A DNA stretch of 64,000 nt from a virus. Both the position numbers and the translations under genes were made by a program. The notes beneath the pieces are model-generated. The model saw only the letters and a program-made list of their open reading frames with translations, ran no database searches and was not told the DNA's origin. Positions 3,478 through 56,472 of the stretch are shown piece after piece (the first letter of the stretch is position 1; each line of letters opens with the position of its first letter). The DNA lies in IMG/VR virus record IMGVR_UViG_3300021233_000290, positions 1-64,000 of that record; one strand, 5' to 3'.

Positions 3478-3486
3478 TGGAAATAA

Positions 3487-3498: not shown

Positions 3499-3612
3499 AT
3501 GATTCCCTTTTCTCAATTCTTTCTAATCAAAGAAGCTTTCGATACTGTATCAGAATTTATGTTAAATCCTGAGCATTCCGATAAAACATACTCCTATCAT
3601 AATATTAAATAA
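3499..3612 (+). CDS. 37-residue late peptide with capsid-targeting-like N-terminus
   Basis: A short gene of 37 codons. Its product begins MIPFSQFFLIKEAFDTVSEF and has no recognised domain. Two things support it: a perfect CTAAATA box with the standard 5-nt spacer, and an N-terminus resembling T4 capsid-targeting sequences (aromatic residues, then I-K-E followed by A, matching the prohead-protease consensus). Its TAA stop lies inside the TTAAATA box of the next gene, so the two are arranged in tandem with individual promoters. It could be a free packaged peptide or a detached targeting leader of the downstream protein. Coding status is inferred, with no homologue recalled. Confidence 0.5.
   Translation: MIPFSQFFLIKEAFDTVSEFMLNPEHSDKTYSYHNIK
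3605..3611 (+). promoter_or_regulatory. Late promoter box for the ADP-ribosyltransferase-like gene
   Basis: TTAAATA with a longer than usual 7-nt spacer before ATG 3619. It overlaps the stop codon of the 37-aa gene. Confidence 0.5.
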
Positions 3613-3618
3613 AATTAT

Positions 3619-5355
3619 ATGGAATTTGATAAAGAATATCGTAGATTAATAATGGAGTTCTCCGAAGGAGCAATTCGTAAGATCGTGCAAAAATTCCAAA
3701 ACGATGCTTCAGAACAGGAAATCCGTAGGGAAGTTCAGGATTTTGAGAAATATAAACAATCTTTACAAAAGAAAGACCCATTCCAATACAAATCATGGAT
3801 AGAGTTCACAGAGGCTATCCATGCTGCCAAGGGTAAATCAGAATTTAAGAAAAAGAAAGCACCTACTAAAGATGTAGTCGCTAATCAAGAGGATATTATC
3901 GCTGATGATGAGAACGTGACAATCTATCGTGGAGATTCTCAGGATAAATGTGTAATGTATGGAAAAGGATACACATTCTGTATTTCTAGACCAGGTGCTG
4001 GAAATTTATATTCGATGTATAGATTAAACGATAATTCCACTTTCTATTTCATATTTTTTAAGAAAAAATCAAAGTCTGAAAAAGATCACATTATGGTCTT
4101 AGATCATACTAGCAGTGGATATCAATGGACTTTTGCCGATAATGACACTCAACCAGTTGAGGGTGGTTGGGATGCAATAGTTAGTGAATATCCAGAATTA
4201 AAGAAATATAAAAAAATATTGGTTAATAAAGAATTAGATGATGTTGAAAAGGGATTTTTAGAGAGAAAGAGAGAATTTAAACGACAATTACCTGCTTACA
4301 CTAACGACCCGAATGTAGATTTGGAAAAGGCTGTGGTTTTGTGGAATAATTTTTCCCATAAAGAAAAAGCAGCAGTTTTAACGAGTTATTATCGAGATAC
4401 TTTACATGATGTAATTTGGAAACAACTGGATAGTAGTCTTAGGAATGAGTATATAAACATGATACCTGATTTATCCCCCTATCAAATGGATAATTTAACT
4501 CCGAAAGAAGTTGCTAGGTATAAAAAATTGAGAGATACGTTATTCGATGATGAATATCCCGATCAATATCCAGAATTTGAAGCAAATAAACTTGATGATA
4601 TCGAAAATGTCTTAAAACATCCGTATTTTGCTATGACATATGCGATGTCTTGGAATAATGATTGGGATAGTATTCCTGATGAAGTGTTTGAATTGTTGGC
4701 GGACTACCCTGATTTTTCTTTGGAATATGCTGAATGGGTTGCTAAGGAAGTTCCTAATACGTTCATACCAGCAGATATCTATGAATCAATAATGGATTCT
4801 GGTGTGTTTGAAGACATGTCCGATGAATTGAGAGAATATTTTAGAAAAAATTGGGGAAAAGATACTTTCTCAGAATCCTTCCAATTTGATAAAGAATATC
4901 AAAAATTGATGGAAGCATACCAGAAAGATTTGACAAAATTCCACCGATTCTTTCAAGAATTGGCTCGATATCAATCAAATCATTACGGGACGTACAACTC
5001 TTCCGTTTTAAGAGATGAATATCTTAAATTACCTGAAGATTTTCGTAAAATGATGAGATTACCCAAATCTCAATATAAAAATTGCTTTAGAGGTGATGAC
5101 GGTAAGACTCAAAAAGCAGTAAGTTCTTTTGTATGTAATCCTAATGTTGAAAAAGCGAGGAGAAATGCTTCTTTTTATGGTGTTAATGTTTTTTCTTTAT
5201 TAAAAGATGTCTATTCTTTATCTGATACGATGGTGGTTGATTTTAAAAGGTTGGCTAAATATTTTGGTAAAAAAATTGCTTATAAAATAATGGATGAATA
5301 CGGCATTGGTGATGATGAGAATGAGGTATTAGTGTTCGATATTGTTTTTAAATAG
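3619..5355 (+). CDS. Candidate Alt-like ADP-ribosyltransferase, late/virion protein
   Basis: 578 aa in two recognisable parts. Residues about 95-220 form a module seen in phage and giant-virus proteins of unknown role (IYRGDSQDKCVMYGKGYTFC, then STFYFIFFKKK and IMVLDH). The C-terminal 100 residues carry an R-S-E signature of mono-ADP-ribosyltransferases: R491 in CFRGDD, S502-S503-F504, and E567-x-E569 in DDENEVLVF. T4 Alt and ModA use the same R-S-ExE layout, and Alt is packaged and injected to modify host RNA polymerase. An FDKEY motif occurs at residues 3-7 and 423-427, the latter followed by L-M-E-A, a prohead-protease-type site. The late promoter fits a packaged enzyme. The NAD fold is inferred from the motif pattern only. 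Confidence 0.5.
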   Translation: MEFDKEYRRLIMEFSEGAIRKIVQKFQNDASEQEIRREVQDFEKYKQSLQKKDPFQYKSWIEFTEAIHAAKGKSEFKKKKAPTKDVVANQEDIIADDENVTIYRGDSQDKCVMYGKGYTFCISRPGAGNLYSMYRLNDNSTFYFIFFKKKSKSEKDHIMVLDHTSSGYQWTFADNDTQPVEGGWDAIVSEYPELKKYKKILVNKELDDVEKGFLERKREFKRQLPAYTNDPNVDLEKAVVLWNNFSHKEKAAVLTSYYRDTLHDVIWKQLDSSLRNEYINMIPDLSPYQMDNLTPKEVARYKKLRDTLFDDEYPDQYPEFEANKLDDIENVLKHPYFAMTYAMSWNNDWDSIPDEVFELLADYPDFSLEYAEWVAKEVPNTFIPADIYESIMDSGVFEDMSDELREYFRKNWGKDTFSESFQFDKEYQKLMEAYQKDLTKFHRFFQELARYQSNHYGTYNSSVLRDEYLKLPEDFRKMMRLPKSQYKNCFRGDDGKTQKAVSSFVCNPNVEKARRNASFYGVNVFSLLKDVYSLSDTMVVDFKRLAKYFGKKIAYKIMDEYGIGDDENEVLVFDIVFK

Positions 5356-5445
5356 TGGACAGAATTTGATAAAGAATATCAAAGGCTTCTTAAAGATTTG
5401 ACATTACCTAAAGATGTGTTAAGGTATTCCCATGCCAAATCCTAA
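5356..5445 (+). other. In-frame extension after the amber stop, with a third FDKEY motif
   Basis: Directly after the TAG at 5353-5355 the same frame stays open for 29 codons (starting WTEFDKEYQRLLKDLTLPKD) to a TAA at 5443-5445. It holds a third near-identical copy of the GAATTTGATAAAGAATATC segment found at 3622 and, almost exactly, at 4885. It has no start codon of its own and runs into the next gene. It is either the remnant of a longer protein or a stop-codon readthrough tail. Confidence 0.45.
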
Positions 5446-7462: not shown

Positions 7463-7792
7463 ATGAACACTAATGATGATTATAAATTTAGAATTTGGTT
7501 TTATGACCAGAAAAAATTTGAGTATGGTGGTTTTGAATATTTTAAAAAATGTTCATTTCCTTTATATTGGTGTAAAATTCAACAATACACTGGACTAAAA
7601 GATTCCAAAGGGAAAGACATATACGAGGGTGATATTATAGAATATACAAATGGTGGTTTTAAATGGGTCAAAAATATATATTTCCATTCAGGATCATTTA
7701 ATCTTAATGGTCATCCTTTAAGAAGTTATAACGAAACTCATATCAACATCATTGGTAACATATTCGAAAATCCAGAATTAAATGAAAATTAA
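7463..7792 (+). CDS. YopX family protein
   Basis: 109 aa with the layout of the YopX family common in phages: N-terminal [15 protein letters not shown], the central [20 protein letters not shown] signature, and C-terminal [11 protein letters not shown]. The family is a small beta-barrel of unknown role. An AT-rich leader with a short palindrome (GTGTA-A-TACAC, 7449-7459) precedes the ATG. The 3' end overlaps the next gene by 11 nt. Confidence 0.8.
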
Positions 7793-8144
7793 AGGTAAAA
7801 TCGCATTACAAAACTTGGGATCGCCTAATAAAAATGGTAGAATCTATTCTGAAGATCTTATAAAAGAAGCCATATTAAATTGTGATTATTTAAAAAATAA
7901 AAGGTTGTTTATAACTCGTAATGCCCCCCAATCTGTTGAAGTTGATTTAGCGGATGTTGTGGGGGTGATTGATGACCTCTACATTAAAGACAATAATTTG
8001 ATTGCGGATGTTTCTTTTATAGTAGAAGATAAAAATTTGGAATATTACGACATTAGACCAAATGGTATTGGTAATGTTGATGAAAATGGTGTTGTATCCA
8101 ACTATGAATTTATATCGTTTTCGTTGACAAACGATCCTGCTTAA
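7782..8144 (+). CDS. Small protein resembling the prohead-protease fold
   Basis: 120 aa. The order [22 protein letters not shown], then [18 protein letters not shown], then a final [10 protein letters not shown] resembles phage prohead proteases of the gp21 type, which start with a NxNGRxYP strand, have a catalytic His-containing loop and end with a catalytic-Ser strand. Here the loop ([14 protein letters not shown]) has no His, so activity as a serine protease is doubtful. It is much shorter than T4 gp21 (about 210 aa). Alternatively it is one of the small uncharacterised 'NKNGRIY' proteins of T4-like phages. It sits among replication genes and has no late promoter. Confidence 0.55.
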
Positions 8145-36367: not shown

Positions 36368-36374
36368 GTAAATG

Positions 36375-36381
36375 TTAAATA
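36375..36381 (+). promoter_or_regulatory. Late promoter box for the repeat fibre gene
   Basis: TTAAATA, spacer ATAAC, ATG 36387, within the short inverted repeat TGTTA-AATAA-TAACA. Confidence 0.7.
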
Positions 36382-36386
36382 ATAAC

Positions 36387-38675
36387 ATGCCAAAGATTTC
36401 TCAATATGTTCCTGCGTCAACACCATTATCTGGTGGTGAAGTCATTATTCTCAATCAAAACGGGACCACATTCAACACCACTCTTAACACGGTTAAAGAT
36501 TATATGGGTCCAAATGGATCTGATGTTTCAACTTTATCAGCTAATTGGGAAAATACCTCAACAACTTTTAGAGCGAATTCGGCTAATTGGGAAAATACCA
36601 CGACAACTTTTAGAGCGAATTCGGCTAATTTTGCTAGAATTGACCAACCTAATACATTTTCTTGTGATCAAATTTTTTCAAGTGGTAATATTTTTTTAGG
36701 AGGTGGATTACCATCAGTGGCAATTAGAAATCGAGGAAATTGTGGAGTCACAATTGGTTATGACGTTGGCGTTCCTTCTAATAATACATTTTTAGTTGGT
36801 AATTGTGCTGGTAATTTGGCTACAAATGCGTGTCACTCTAATTTTTTAGGTAATAATAGTGGTAATTCTGCCACAAACGCTTTCTTTTCTAATTTCTCAG
36901 GTTGTAATGCTGGTCTTTCAGCCACAAATGCTAATAACTCTAATTTCTTAGGTCGAAATGCTGGTCGCCTTGCTACAAATGCGTGTCATTCTAATTTCTC
37001 GGGTTGTAATACTGGGTGTAATGCTAGAAATGCTAGCTTTTCCAATTTCTTTGGTTATAATGCTGGATGTAACGCTACAAACGCCAGCAGTTCTAATTTC
37101 TTAGGTTCTAGTTCTGGTCGAAATTCTACAAATGCTCGTAATTCTAATTTTTTAGGTGCTGGCACTGGTAGAAACGCCATAAATGCTTGTTTTTCCAATT
37201 TCATAGGTAATTATTCTGGTTATGGTGCTACAAATGCTTTTTCTTCTAACTTCTTAGGTGGTAATTCTGGTTATTATGCTAATAACTCATCATATTCAAA
37301 TTTCTTAGGTTATAACACTGGTAGGAGTGCTACAAATGCATGTCATTCTAATTTCTTGGGATTGTATTCTGGTTGTGCTGCTGCAAATGCTTCCTTTTCT
37401 AACTTCTTAGGTAGATGCTCTGGTCGTTCTGCGACAAATGCTAACAACTCCAATTTTTTTGGTAGATACGCTGGTTTTATATCCACAAATGCGTGTCATT
37501 CTAATTTCTCAGGTTATAATGCTGGTCGAAGTGCTGCAAATGCTAATAACTCTAATTTCTTGGGTTCTAATGCTGGATGTAATGCCACGAGTGCTAATAA
37601 TTCTAATTTTTTAGGTAATGGTGCTGGTCAAAATTCTACAAATGCTTGTTTTTCTAATTTCTTAGGTAATAGTGCTGGGCGAAATTCTGCGTGTGCGGTC
37701 AATTCCAATTTCTTAGGTAATAATGCTGGTTTTAGTGCTGCAAGTGCTAATAACTCTAATTTCTTAGGTAATAATGCTGGTTGCGGTGCTGCAAGTGCTA
37801 ATAACTCTAATTTCTTAGGTCAAAGAGCTGGTTATAATGCTGCAAATGCTTGTAGCTCTAATTTCTTAGGTAATAATGCTGGTTGCGGTGCTGTAAGTGC
37901 TAATAACTCTAATTTCTTAGGTAATAATGCTGGTTGCGGTGCAACAAATGCTAATAATTCCAATTTCTTAGGTAATAATGCTGGTTTTAGTGCAACAAAT
38001 TCTAATAACTCTAATTTCTTAGGTAATAATGCTGGTTGCGGTGCTGCAAATGCTTGTAGCTCTAATTTCTTAGGTAATAATGCTGGTTGCGGTGCTGCAA
38101 GTGCTAATAATTCCAATTTCTTAGGTAATAATGCTGGATGTAATGCCACGAGTGCTTGTTTTTCCAATTTCATGGGTAATAATGCTGGATGTAATGCGAC
38201 AAATGCTCGTTATTCCAATTTCATGGGTCGAAATGCTGGATTAAATGCTACAAATGCTTTTTATTCCAATTTCTTTGGAAATAGTGCTGGTGGTAATGCT
38301 GCAAGTGCTAATAACTCCAATTTCTTGGGTCGAAATGCTGGATGTAATGCTAACGCATCATGTGAATCGATTTTCATCGGAAACAATACAGGTAATAACA
38401 GTTGCAATAGTTGCGCTTCTGTCTTTATTGGAAGTTTTGCAAATGAAAATATTTTCAACTCTCAACGTGCAATTGCAATCGGTGCTTGTTCTAGAGCGAG
38501 TAGCTGCGGTGTTGCATTAGGTTGGGGTGCTACGGTCACAACTAATAATTTAGCCTTTGGAAGTACTAACGCGCCATTACAAGTTGCACCTGGACAAACC
38601 CTTTCAACTTCATTGAGTAGCTTATTCACCATCGTGAATGGTGTGTGTTTCAGAATCCCATTGTTAGCTCCTTAA
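36387..38675 (+). CDS. Long tail-fibre protein with thirty 17-residue repeats
   Basis: 762 aa. The N-terminal ~150 residues (PKISQYVPASTPLSGGEVII, then an attachment and helix-like part with two copies of NWENTSTTFRANSA-type repeats) lead into 30 copies of a 17-residue unit (consensus SNFLGNNAGCGATNANN), forming a beta-solenoid or trimeric fibre like the YadA head. The C-terminal part has AIAIGACSRASSCGVALGWG, the AIAIG motif of YadA-type adhesin heads, then a short cap. It probably binds the host surface. Its 3' end overlaps the convergent sulfotransferase by 12 nt. The number of Cys residues is unusual for a fibre. Confidence 0.8.
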   Translation: MPKISQYVPASTPLSGGEVIILNQNGTTFNTTLNTVKDYMGPNGSDVSTLSANWENTSTTFRANSANWENTTTTFRANSANFARIDQPNTFSCDQIFSSGNIFLGGGLPSVAIRNRGNCGVTIGYDVGVPSNNTFLVGNCAGNLATNACHSNFLGNNSGNSATNAFFSNFSGCNAGLSATNANNSNFLGRNAGRLATNACHSNFSGCNTGCNARNASFSNFFGYNAGCNATNASSSNFLGSSSGRNSTNARNSNFLGAGTGRNAINACFSNFIGNYSGYGATNAFSSNFLGGNSGYYANNSSYSNFLGYNTGRSATNACHSNFLGLYSGCAAANASFSNFLGRCSGRSATNANNSNFFGRYAGFISTNACHSNFSGYNAGRSAANANNSNFLGSNAGCNATSANNSNFLGNGAGQNSTNACFSNFLGNSAGRNSACAVNSNFLGNNAGFSAASANNSNFLGNNAGCGAASANNSNFLGQRAGYNAANACSSNFLGNNAGCGAVSANNSNFLGNNAGCGATNANNSNFLGNNAGFSATNSNNSNFLGNNAGCGAANACSSNFLGNNAGCGAASANNSNFLGNNAGCNATSACFSNFMGNNAGCNATNARYSNFMGRNAGLNATNAFYSNFFGNSAGGNAASANNSNFLGRNAGCNANASCESIFIGNNTGNNSCNSCASVFIGSFANENIFNSQRAIAIGACSRASSCGVALGWGATVTTNNLAFGSTNAPLQVAPGQTLSTSLSSLFTIVNGVCFRIPLLAP
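36837..38366 (+). repeat. 30 tandem 51-bp units in the fibre gene
   Basis: The SNF codons start at 36837 and recur to 38316, a distance of 1479 bp or exactly 29 x 51, so no indel interrupts the series. The units from about 37700 to 38130 are nearly identical in DNA (TCTAATTTCTTAGGTAATAA core), while earlier ones have diverged, suggesting recent expansion at the 3' side. Confidence 0.9.
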
Positions 38676-54942: not shown

Positions 54943-55203
54943 TTATTTATCTTTTTTATTCTTTTTTTCCCAACTTACTCTCTTAGAGCTTTTCTTTTTA
55001 TACATTCTACCTTTAATACTTTTACAATCTGCCTTTGTAGCTCTACATGCAGGGTAAGAACCTTTTGATGTATCTTTTCTACCACAAGGTCCGCCTGTCT
55101 TACAGTTGATCCAACCTTTGAATTTTTTACCTTTCTTATCTACATGAGGAGCGAACCAATCATGTAAACTTTCCAGTATTTCTCTTTGAGACATCTGTTC
55201 CAT
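54943..55203 (-). CDS. Small basic Cys-rich late protein
   Basis: 86 aa. N-terminal helix MEQMSQREILESLHDWF (I-L-E followed by S). Then GWINCKTGGPCGRKDTSKGS, YPACRATKADCKSIKG form a module with five Cys, met in phages and some giant viruses, followed by a Lys-rich tail (KKKSSKRVSWEKKNKKDK). Probable zinc-binding, DNA-associated protein. ATG 55203 overlaps the preceding stop (TGATG); a GTG at 55206 is possible. No late box. Confidence 0.65.
   Translation of the reverse strand: MEQMSQREILESLHDWFAPHVDKKGKKFKGWINCKTGGPCGRKDTSKGSYPACRATKADCKSIKGRMYKKKSSKRVSWEKKNKKDK
54944..54950 (-). promoter_or_regulatory. Late promoter box for the 158-aa gene
   Basis: ATAAATA on the minus strand, spacer ATATC (5 nt), ATG 54938. 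Confidence 0.6.
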
Positions 55204-55541
55204 CACTTTTTACTATTCCCCCAATTTTTTGCTCCCACTTTTCTACATTTAACTAATGCGCCAGAAGCATATGCACTAGGCCATACTTTATATCTAGATT
55301 TTACTTTTTTATAACAAGCATCTTGTTCTTCTTCCTCACCGCAATCCTCATTATCTTCGTCTTCTTCTCTATCATCTCCGAAGATTTTTTCACCTATTTC
55401 TTCTTCCCAATCTTCTAATTTATTATTTTTATTTCTATCAGCTTTTTTGGGATCAAATTTTTCTCTTAATGTCTCCTCATAGATCATGGTCAATTCATTC
55501 ATGGACTCCCAATCTCTTGATGTATTTTGTTGATTATTCAT
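55203..55541 (-). CDS. Late acidic-basic protein with a conserved C-terminal module
   Basis: 112 aa from ATG 55541. The first half (RDWESMNELTMIYEETLREK) has I-Y-E followed by E, then a long acidic stretch (GDDREEDEDNEDCGEEEEQD), then the C-terminal CYKKVKSRYKVWPSAYASGA, LVKCRKVGAKNWG module that is conserved in many phages. The acidic plus basic arrangement suggests a packaged nucleic-acid-binding protein. A start at 55565 would include the promoter-like region. Confidence 0.65.
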   Translation of the reverse strand: MNNQQNTSRDWESMNELTMIYEETLREKFDPKKADRNKNNKLEDWEEEIGEKIFGDDREEDEDNEDCGEEEEQDACYKKVKSRYKVWPSAYASGALVKCRKVGAKNWGNSKK

Positions 55542-55546
55542 ATTAT

Positions 55547-55553
55547 TATTTTT
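55547..55553 (-). promoter_or_regulatory. Degenerate late promoter box
   Basis: AAAAATA on the minus strand, spacer ATAAT (5 nt), ATG 55541. It departs from consensus in two positions. Confidence 0.35.
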
Positions 55554-55554
55554 A

Positions 55555-56472
55555 TTAGGACGCATAAGCTACGACTTCAAATGACGCATCTTCACCAGTT
55601 CCACCCAAGTTTTCCCAATTGAAACTGATTCTGCTATTTTCAATTTCAGGTTCTTCATTAAAGGGATCTTCACTCTCGTTTTTTCTACGGAATGTCAATA
55701 GATTTTGACCTTTGAAACCACCATTTTCTGGAGTTCCATAATGAGCTTTAGATATTCTTTCATCAAATACTGAATCTAAGGAATATCCTAAATCATCTAA
55801 TACTTCTACTAATTTACTGATAGCTTTACCAACAGTTGGAAATCTACCATTACCATCCAAACCAACTTCAGTCAAAGCTTGTGTAATAGCTTGTCTGTCA
55901 CGATCCGTAATTGTATCAGAACCACGCATCATGCTTTCATAAAGCATTCCAAGTTCTTGTGTAGATTCCCAAGATTTTGACTCACCTGCCAATTTGAGGT
56001 TTGTTGGAGTATTTTTTCCATTCCCTTTGTCCGTCACATTAGTAATAAGATTTGGATCAATTTTTAATTTTTTGGGTTTAATGATGACAGTATCCTTTTT
56101 TCTAAATTGATCAGGAATGGGAATACCAGCACTGATGTCTGCGATATCCACCATATCGAGAGTTACAGGAACTCTACCATAGGTTCTACCACCACCATGA
56201 TCAGCAGCAATTGTCAATACAGCAGTAGATGCTGATTTGTATTGGTTTCCAGCAGAAAATCCAGATTGTTTATCACCAACTTGACAGACTTTAATATTCA
56301 ACCCACAAGTAGCCAATTCATCAACAGCTTTTTGAAGATCTGTTGGCATATGTTTATAGGTTTCGGTGTTTTTATAACCACTGCGAAATTTTACATAATC
56401 ACCTGGAAGATAACCACCAGCTTCTGTTCTGGAGATAACTGTCTCGAAAATAGCATCAAATTTTTTTCCCAT
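55555..56472 (-). CDS. Late virion protein, unknown (305 aa)
   Basis: N-terminal MGKKFDAIFETVISRTEAGG (I-F-E followed by T, a leader-like site). The first half is beta-rich (AGGYLPGDYVKFRSGYKNTE). The centre has KSWESTQELGMLYESMMRGS, nearly the same W-E-S-x-x-E-L-x-x-x-Y-E motif as the next gene, with L-Y-E followed by S. The C-terminal part is helical then beta. No family recognised. Late box divergent from that of the 56506 gene. Confidence 0.65.
   Translation of the reverse strand: MGKKFDAIFETVISRTEAGGYLPGDYVKFRSGYKNTETYKHMPTDLQKAVDELATCGLNIKVCQVGDKQSGFSAGNQYKSASTAVLTIAADHGGGRTYGRVPVTLDMVDIADISAGIPIPDQFRKKDTVIIKPKKLKIDPNLITNVTDKGNGKNTPTNLKLAGESKSWESTQELGMLYESMMRGSDTITDRDRQAITQALTEVGLDGNGRFPTVGKAISKLVEVLDDLGYSLDSVFDERISKAHYGTPENGGFKGQNLLTFRRKNESEDPFNEEPEIENSRISFNWENLGGTGEDASFEVVAYAS

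Follow-up and report, generated by a model that had tools for sequence, protein, structure and literature searches.

Background

Phage T4 packages internal proteins, which are diverse cargo with a conserved capsid-targeting sequence (CTS; PMC3012670) and are trimmed by the prohead protease gp21 (PMC9958956). The passages on Alt in PMC5694885 place gp21 cuts in that protein at I/L-x-E type sites, ITE-6 and LTE-619, and in the notes to the T4 genome (NC_000866), alt.-1 and alt.-2, beside alt, are described as an ancient copy of the 5' part of alt that carries a stop codon. In phages phiKZ and SPN3US, head ejection proteins are packaged, and a phage protease cleaves their propeptides at a motif, according to the relevant parts of PMC5694885 and PMC10052503.

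Here, we discuss an open reading frame (ORF 3619–5355, +) in a 64,000-nucleotide stretch of DNA (the window), which comprises positions 1 to 64,000 of the 81,016-bp IMG/VR phage record IMGVR_UViG_3300021233_000290. By analogy, the T4 internal proteins appear to be the closest kind to its product. Like IPI, IPII, and IPIII, it would be expressed late, begin with a short leader that has a site of the I/L-x-E type, reuse that leader in front of cargo that varies, and probably be cleaved by an S77 protease. Conversely, its leader is not homologous to theirs by eye and recurs inside one ORF between modules, and the protein is much larger and known here from its sequence, from which we infer packaging. 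A putative leader repeated between fused cargo modules is the point that sets it apart from the T4 internal proteins. T4 Alt is likewise a large late protein, with possible N-terminal and internal I/L-x-E cuts and duplicated 5' gene parts nearby, but it has no detectable similarity to ORF 3619–5355 in the N-terminal module or the catalytic profile. The SPN3US propeptides are N-terminal, and the passages of the two papers cited above do not describe a leader that recurs between cargo modules fused together.

Gene and late-gene motif

The ORF was confirmed as real and encodes 578 aa. The record contains genes for a DnaB-type helicase, a terminase, and a contractile-tail sheath, and probably derives from a large myovirus-type phage. 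A preliminary description of the locus had named several residues, and all of them are present (R491, S502, S503, F504, E567, E569, YGKGYTFCISRPG, and LMEA with E432). The stop codon is TAG (5353..5355, +), which ends only 3 of the 59 genes counted (TAA/TGA/TAG = 39/17/3). A recoded stop was considered and set aside on this tally and on a gene order consistent with table 11. Elsewhere in the window, the gene at 36372–38675 (+) probably specifies a fibre or adhesin: its 767-aa product is built of repeats of ~20 residues (SNFLGNNAGxxATNAxx).

The hexamer TAAATA was found ≤25 nt upstream of 14 of 32 virion genes versus 1 of 24 early genes (Fisher P = 8e-4), with the two classes assigned by position and a few recognisable genes. 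ORF 3619–5355 has the motif at 3606..3611 (+), within 25 nt 5' of its start, and the late promoter proposed in the preliminary description thus holds as a late-gene signal, by motif. In a genome that is AT-rich and lacks obvious ribosome sites, TAAATA may serve as a late promoter or as the context for translation starts; in either case, the ORF groups with the virion genes. Should the hexamer be a late promoter of the T4 type, the late mRNAs would have almost no leader. Many virion gene starts in the window have TAAATA 5–15 nt ahead of them.

Repeated leader

We found an 18-bp DNA repeat, AATTTGATAAAGAATATC, in exactly three identical copies in the window (at 3623, 4883, and 5363). They stand at the start of the ORF (MEFDKEYRRLIMEF), inside it (QFDKEYQKLMEAY, residues 422–434), and in frame past the TAG (TEFDKEYQRLLKDL). 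This identical repeat at the N-terminus, at a module junction, and past the stop is new here. The first copy lies in leader 1 (3619..3657, +; MEFDKEYRRLIME, residues 1–13), a candidate capsid-targeting sequence with a predicted cut after E13, and the second in leader 2 (4879..4914, +; FQFDKEYQKLME, residues 421–432), at the module junction, with a predicted cut after E432. At the protein level, FDKEYRRLIME (within residues 1–13) recurs as FDKEYQKLME (423–432), and the score of this internal repeat was reached by 1 of 60 shuffles. The ORF thus contains an internal copy of its own N-terminal leader, missed by the first reading, and LMEA lies within this copy. That reading had taken LMEA for a prohead-protease-like site; the sequence is indeed present at E432, as the I/L-x-E of the second leader copy. 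The motif [IL]xE is short and has five occurrences across the protein's 578 aa, two of which stand at nearly the same place in the two translated leader copies (IME13 and LME432). Judged by its sequence, the N-terminus carries a short putative leader with an I/L-x-E site of the CTS type.

The third copy lies in an in-frame remnant past the stop, without a start codon (leader 3; 5356..5445, +; WTEFDKEYQRLLKDL...), which overlaps the start of a glycosyltransferase gene at 5432 and is probably a relic of a lost third unit. Immediately 5' of the main ORF, and in the same frame, is a 37-aa ORF (3499..3612, +; MIPFSQFFLIKEAFD...) that has a AACTAAATA motif of its own at 3485. By eye, it resembles the start (MISFKQFFMEK) of gene L057 (1482–1919) in the related phage record G007, which encodes a full 146-aa protein directly upstream of the homologue there; from this resemblance, the 37-aa ORF is probably a leader relic. 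With the leader 3 remnant and this upstream ORF, the locus resembles a series of units, each a leader plus a module, with only leader relics left of two.

When IMG/VR was scanned with the leader FDKEYQ[KR]L, only unrelated proteins were returned besides the phage itself. Comparison of the leaders of different genes across the proteome was borderline at the protein level (best pair 47 versus shuffled maxima of 38–47) and is uninformative on FDKEY, as that scan left out ORF 3619–5355. The best pair in the scan, 55206/55558, merely equalled the best shuffled pair. Two neighbouring genes at 55203–56472 (−) have a leader-like sequence in common, again N-terminal in one (RDWESMNELTMIYE, residue 17) and internal in the other (KSWESTQELGMLYES, residue 166), a similarity that is borderline by shuffling.

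N-terminal module and its family

The N-terminal module spans residues 35–322 (3721..4584, +; YGxGYxFCISR...HIMVLD) and is followed by an acidic linker region, predicted to be probably helical (residues 330–415; 4606..4863, +). Residues ~39–305 have relatives in IMG/VR at 31–50% identity (L003–L011 and L015–L020), and C121, N129, and Y134 are invariant across 11 module sequences. The downstream parts of the relatives differ: RHS/YD-like repeats follow the module in L003 and L015, leucine-rich-type repeats in L009 and L010, and a lysozyme domain in L010 (Phage_lysozyme PF00959, E = 4.7e-7). L010 has a 17-aa leader, SFDSxVREILNEGKRES, at its N-terminus and a further copy preceding the lysozyme domain, the sequences diverging past the leader (0 of 60 shuffles), and in L009 this leader appears again before a second module copy (0 of 60 shuffles). 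L003 has an LLTE/G (LTE/G) site between its parts, without a copy of its own leader, and the other relatives had no significant second leader. In L018 (1954–3719), the homologue occupies two frames of 242 and 330 aa that overlap, owing to an assembly error or a frameshift.

A distant homologue of the module is EST35_0205 of Pseudomonas phage PA5oct, for which the GenBank note reads 'structural protein, ESI-MS/MS'. The two were linked by profile (hhalign 94.6%, E = 6e-8; ~25% identity over the module only) and, separately, by fold: the AF2 model of the module (pLDDT 77) matched the PA5oct structural protein in BFVD (Foldseek rank 6, E = 1.4e-3). On both grounds, the N-terminal module belongs to the EST35_0205 virion-protein family, although the link is distant. 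This 'structural protein' family, which includes the type found in Pseudomonas phage MIJ3, has the module in common (FGxGTxWCTA / YGxGYxFCIS). In addition, EST35_0205 begins with a leader-like MKLFEVFTLYE and, per its GenBank note, was detected in the virion by ESI-MS/MS, whereas its C-terminal part is unrelated to that of ORF 3619–5355. The AF2 model had no fold match in the PDB, and no match to T4 Alt was obtained with the module (hhalign probability 0.1%). The module represents a conserved, undescribed phage family without a named function, in jumbo phages and T4-like environmental phages.

C-terminal module

The C-terminal module (4915..5352, +; 146 aa) is an orphan, with no relative but the phage itself among IMG/VR, GTDB genomes, INPHARED, PLSDB, and 12 related records. 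It had been described as carrying the R-S-E residues of mono-ADP-ribosyltransferases (ARTs) in the right order and spacing. The order, R491/S502-S503-F504/E567-x-E569, is present as a candidate ART-like pattern, but the spacing is unlike that of T4 ARTs: R and S are 11 residues apart versus ~26 in Alt, ModA, ModB, and JS10, and 9 residues follow E-x-E versus ~35 in ModA. A loose R..S-S/F..E-x-E pattern turned up in 22 of 321 phage proteins, hardly more than the 16 expected in shuffled ones. A stricter one ([FY]RG...SSF...ExE plus two hydrophobics), defined after seeing the sequence, was unique to ORF 3619–5355, and the quality of the motifs (FRG, SSF, and ENEVLV) is suggestive of an ART.

Profile searches against ART families gave no support to the earlier assignment. 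The module had no ART or other family match in Pfam or NCBIfam and no ART match in PHROGs; PF03496 and PF18760 did not match it, and no Pfam ART family was found in its own or the related genomes. T4-type ART profiles ranked the C-terminal part at 129 of 508 and 385 of 479 (Alt catalytic HMM), at chance level, as for random sequence. In the control, most real ARTs ranked 6–21 with the profile of the other T4 subfamily, but three ranked lower, so this test has moderate power only. Single-sequence AF2 of the C-terminal part, run without homologues, gave no usable fold (pLDDT 42). The proposal that the protein is a type of Alt is thus unsupported, since the N-terminal module is unlike T4 Alt and no match was obtained between the Alt catalytic profile and the C-terminal part. 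As a fold class, a divergent ART is a tentative assignment from the motifs, one that we regard with some doubt, and the module could be another effector.

Proposed packaging model and alternatives

On balance, we lean towards reading ORF 3619–5355 as a late, T4-like, head-packaged modular precursor that is probably cut between its modules by a prohead protease. The preliminary description had already proposed a late, packaged, and protease-cut protein, and several observations agree with it: the repeats, with a leader and I/L-x-E at the junction, the late motif, the module family with its swapped partners, the virion presence of a distant homologue in PA5oct, and the S77 genes of relatives. 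Packaging of this protein, both cuts, injection, and any enzyme activity are what we infer. The short leader FDKEY...[IL]xE would direct the protein into the prohead core, as the capsid-targeting sequences of T4 do, and a T4-type (S77) prohead protease would remove the N-terminal leader after E13. A second cut after E432, inside the second leader copy, would free the N-terminal module and the 146-aa C-terminal module, and both would enter the host together with the DNA. The repeated leaders may be points of module gain, loss, and swap; relatives carry lysozyme or leucine-rich-type repeats downstream.

One alternative is an Alt-type enzyme, packaged and injected, that ADP-ribosylates host proteins via a C-terminal R-S-E domain. 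R491 (in FRG), S502-S503-F504, and E567-x-E569 followed by VLV do occur in the right order, and the TAAATA motif and the candidate prohead-protease sites would fit such a protein; however, the absence of an HMM match to ART profiles, the ranks obtained with the T4 ART profiles, the short R-S distance, the 9 aa beyond ExE, the near-chance loose motif, and an N-terminal module unrelated to Alt make it unlikely, and AF2 without homologues is uninformative here. Another is that the protein simply forms part of the virion structure (the neck, tail, or baseplate) and has accessory domains, and that the repeats are only recent DNA duplications without a role in targeting or cleavage. This is consistent with the PA5oct homologue, which lies in a virion gene cluster adjoining the terminase, with the placement of the L017 relative among large virion-type genes, and with the three 18-bp copies, which are probably recent given that they are identical at the DNA level. 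We nevertheless consider it rather improbable, as the repeats coincide precisely with the N-terminus and the module junctions, I/L-x-E follows in both translated copies, L009 and L010 have unrelated leader sequences in an equivalent role, and the L018 relative is close to a prohead-protease-like gene.

It is also conceivable that ribosomes read through the rare TAG into leader 3 and thereby add a C-terminal tail, which by analogy would recall the C-terminal propeptide of Alt described in passages of PMC5694885. Leader 3 is in frame directly past this seldom used stop, but it reads RLLKD, without I/L-x-E, no suppressor tRNA was found in the window, and the next gene begins inside it; readthrough therefore seems very improbable.

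Extending the modular-precursor reading from this locus to its relatives, we cautiously suggest that phages of this group could package polyproteins, with several cargo modules per ORF, each following a capsid-targeting leader of its own and separated within the prohead by the prohead protease. With similar caution, the leaders could serve as swap points for cargo (lysozyme, repeat proteins, and perhaps an ART). If this is right, packaged phage effectors could be found in raw sequence via a short N-terminal leader recurring before other domains, and this would also show how injected cargo passes between phages.

Prohead protease genes

PF03420 (S77, the T4 gp21 family) was above the cut-off in 6 of the 12 records of related phages searched, and in L018 the module gene is ~2.2 kb from a prohead-protease-like gene. 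A true S77 protease was not found in the 81-kb record of the window, where the only match, weak or degenerate, was at 7782–8144; the record, a fragment, appears to be missing the head genes. The 7782–8144 (+) gene encodes a 120-aa protein similar to head maturation proteases, with a match to phrog_207 at E = 1e-6 and a weak one to PF03420. Inspected by eye, it has N-A-P where true S77 enzymes have N-H-P, which probably makes it an inactive paralogue. Record G007 contains a similar match of 133 aa, and a diverged paralogue of the prohead protease is also reported for SPN3US in PMC5694885.
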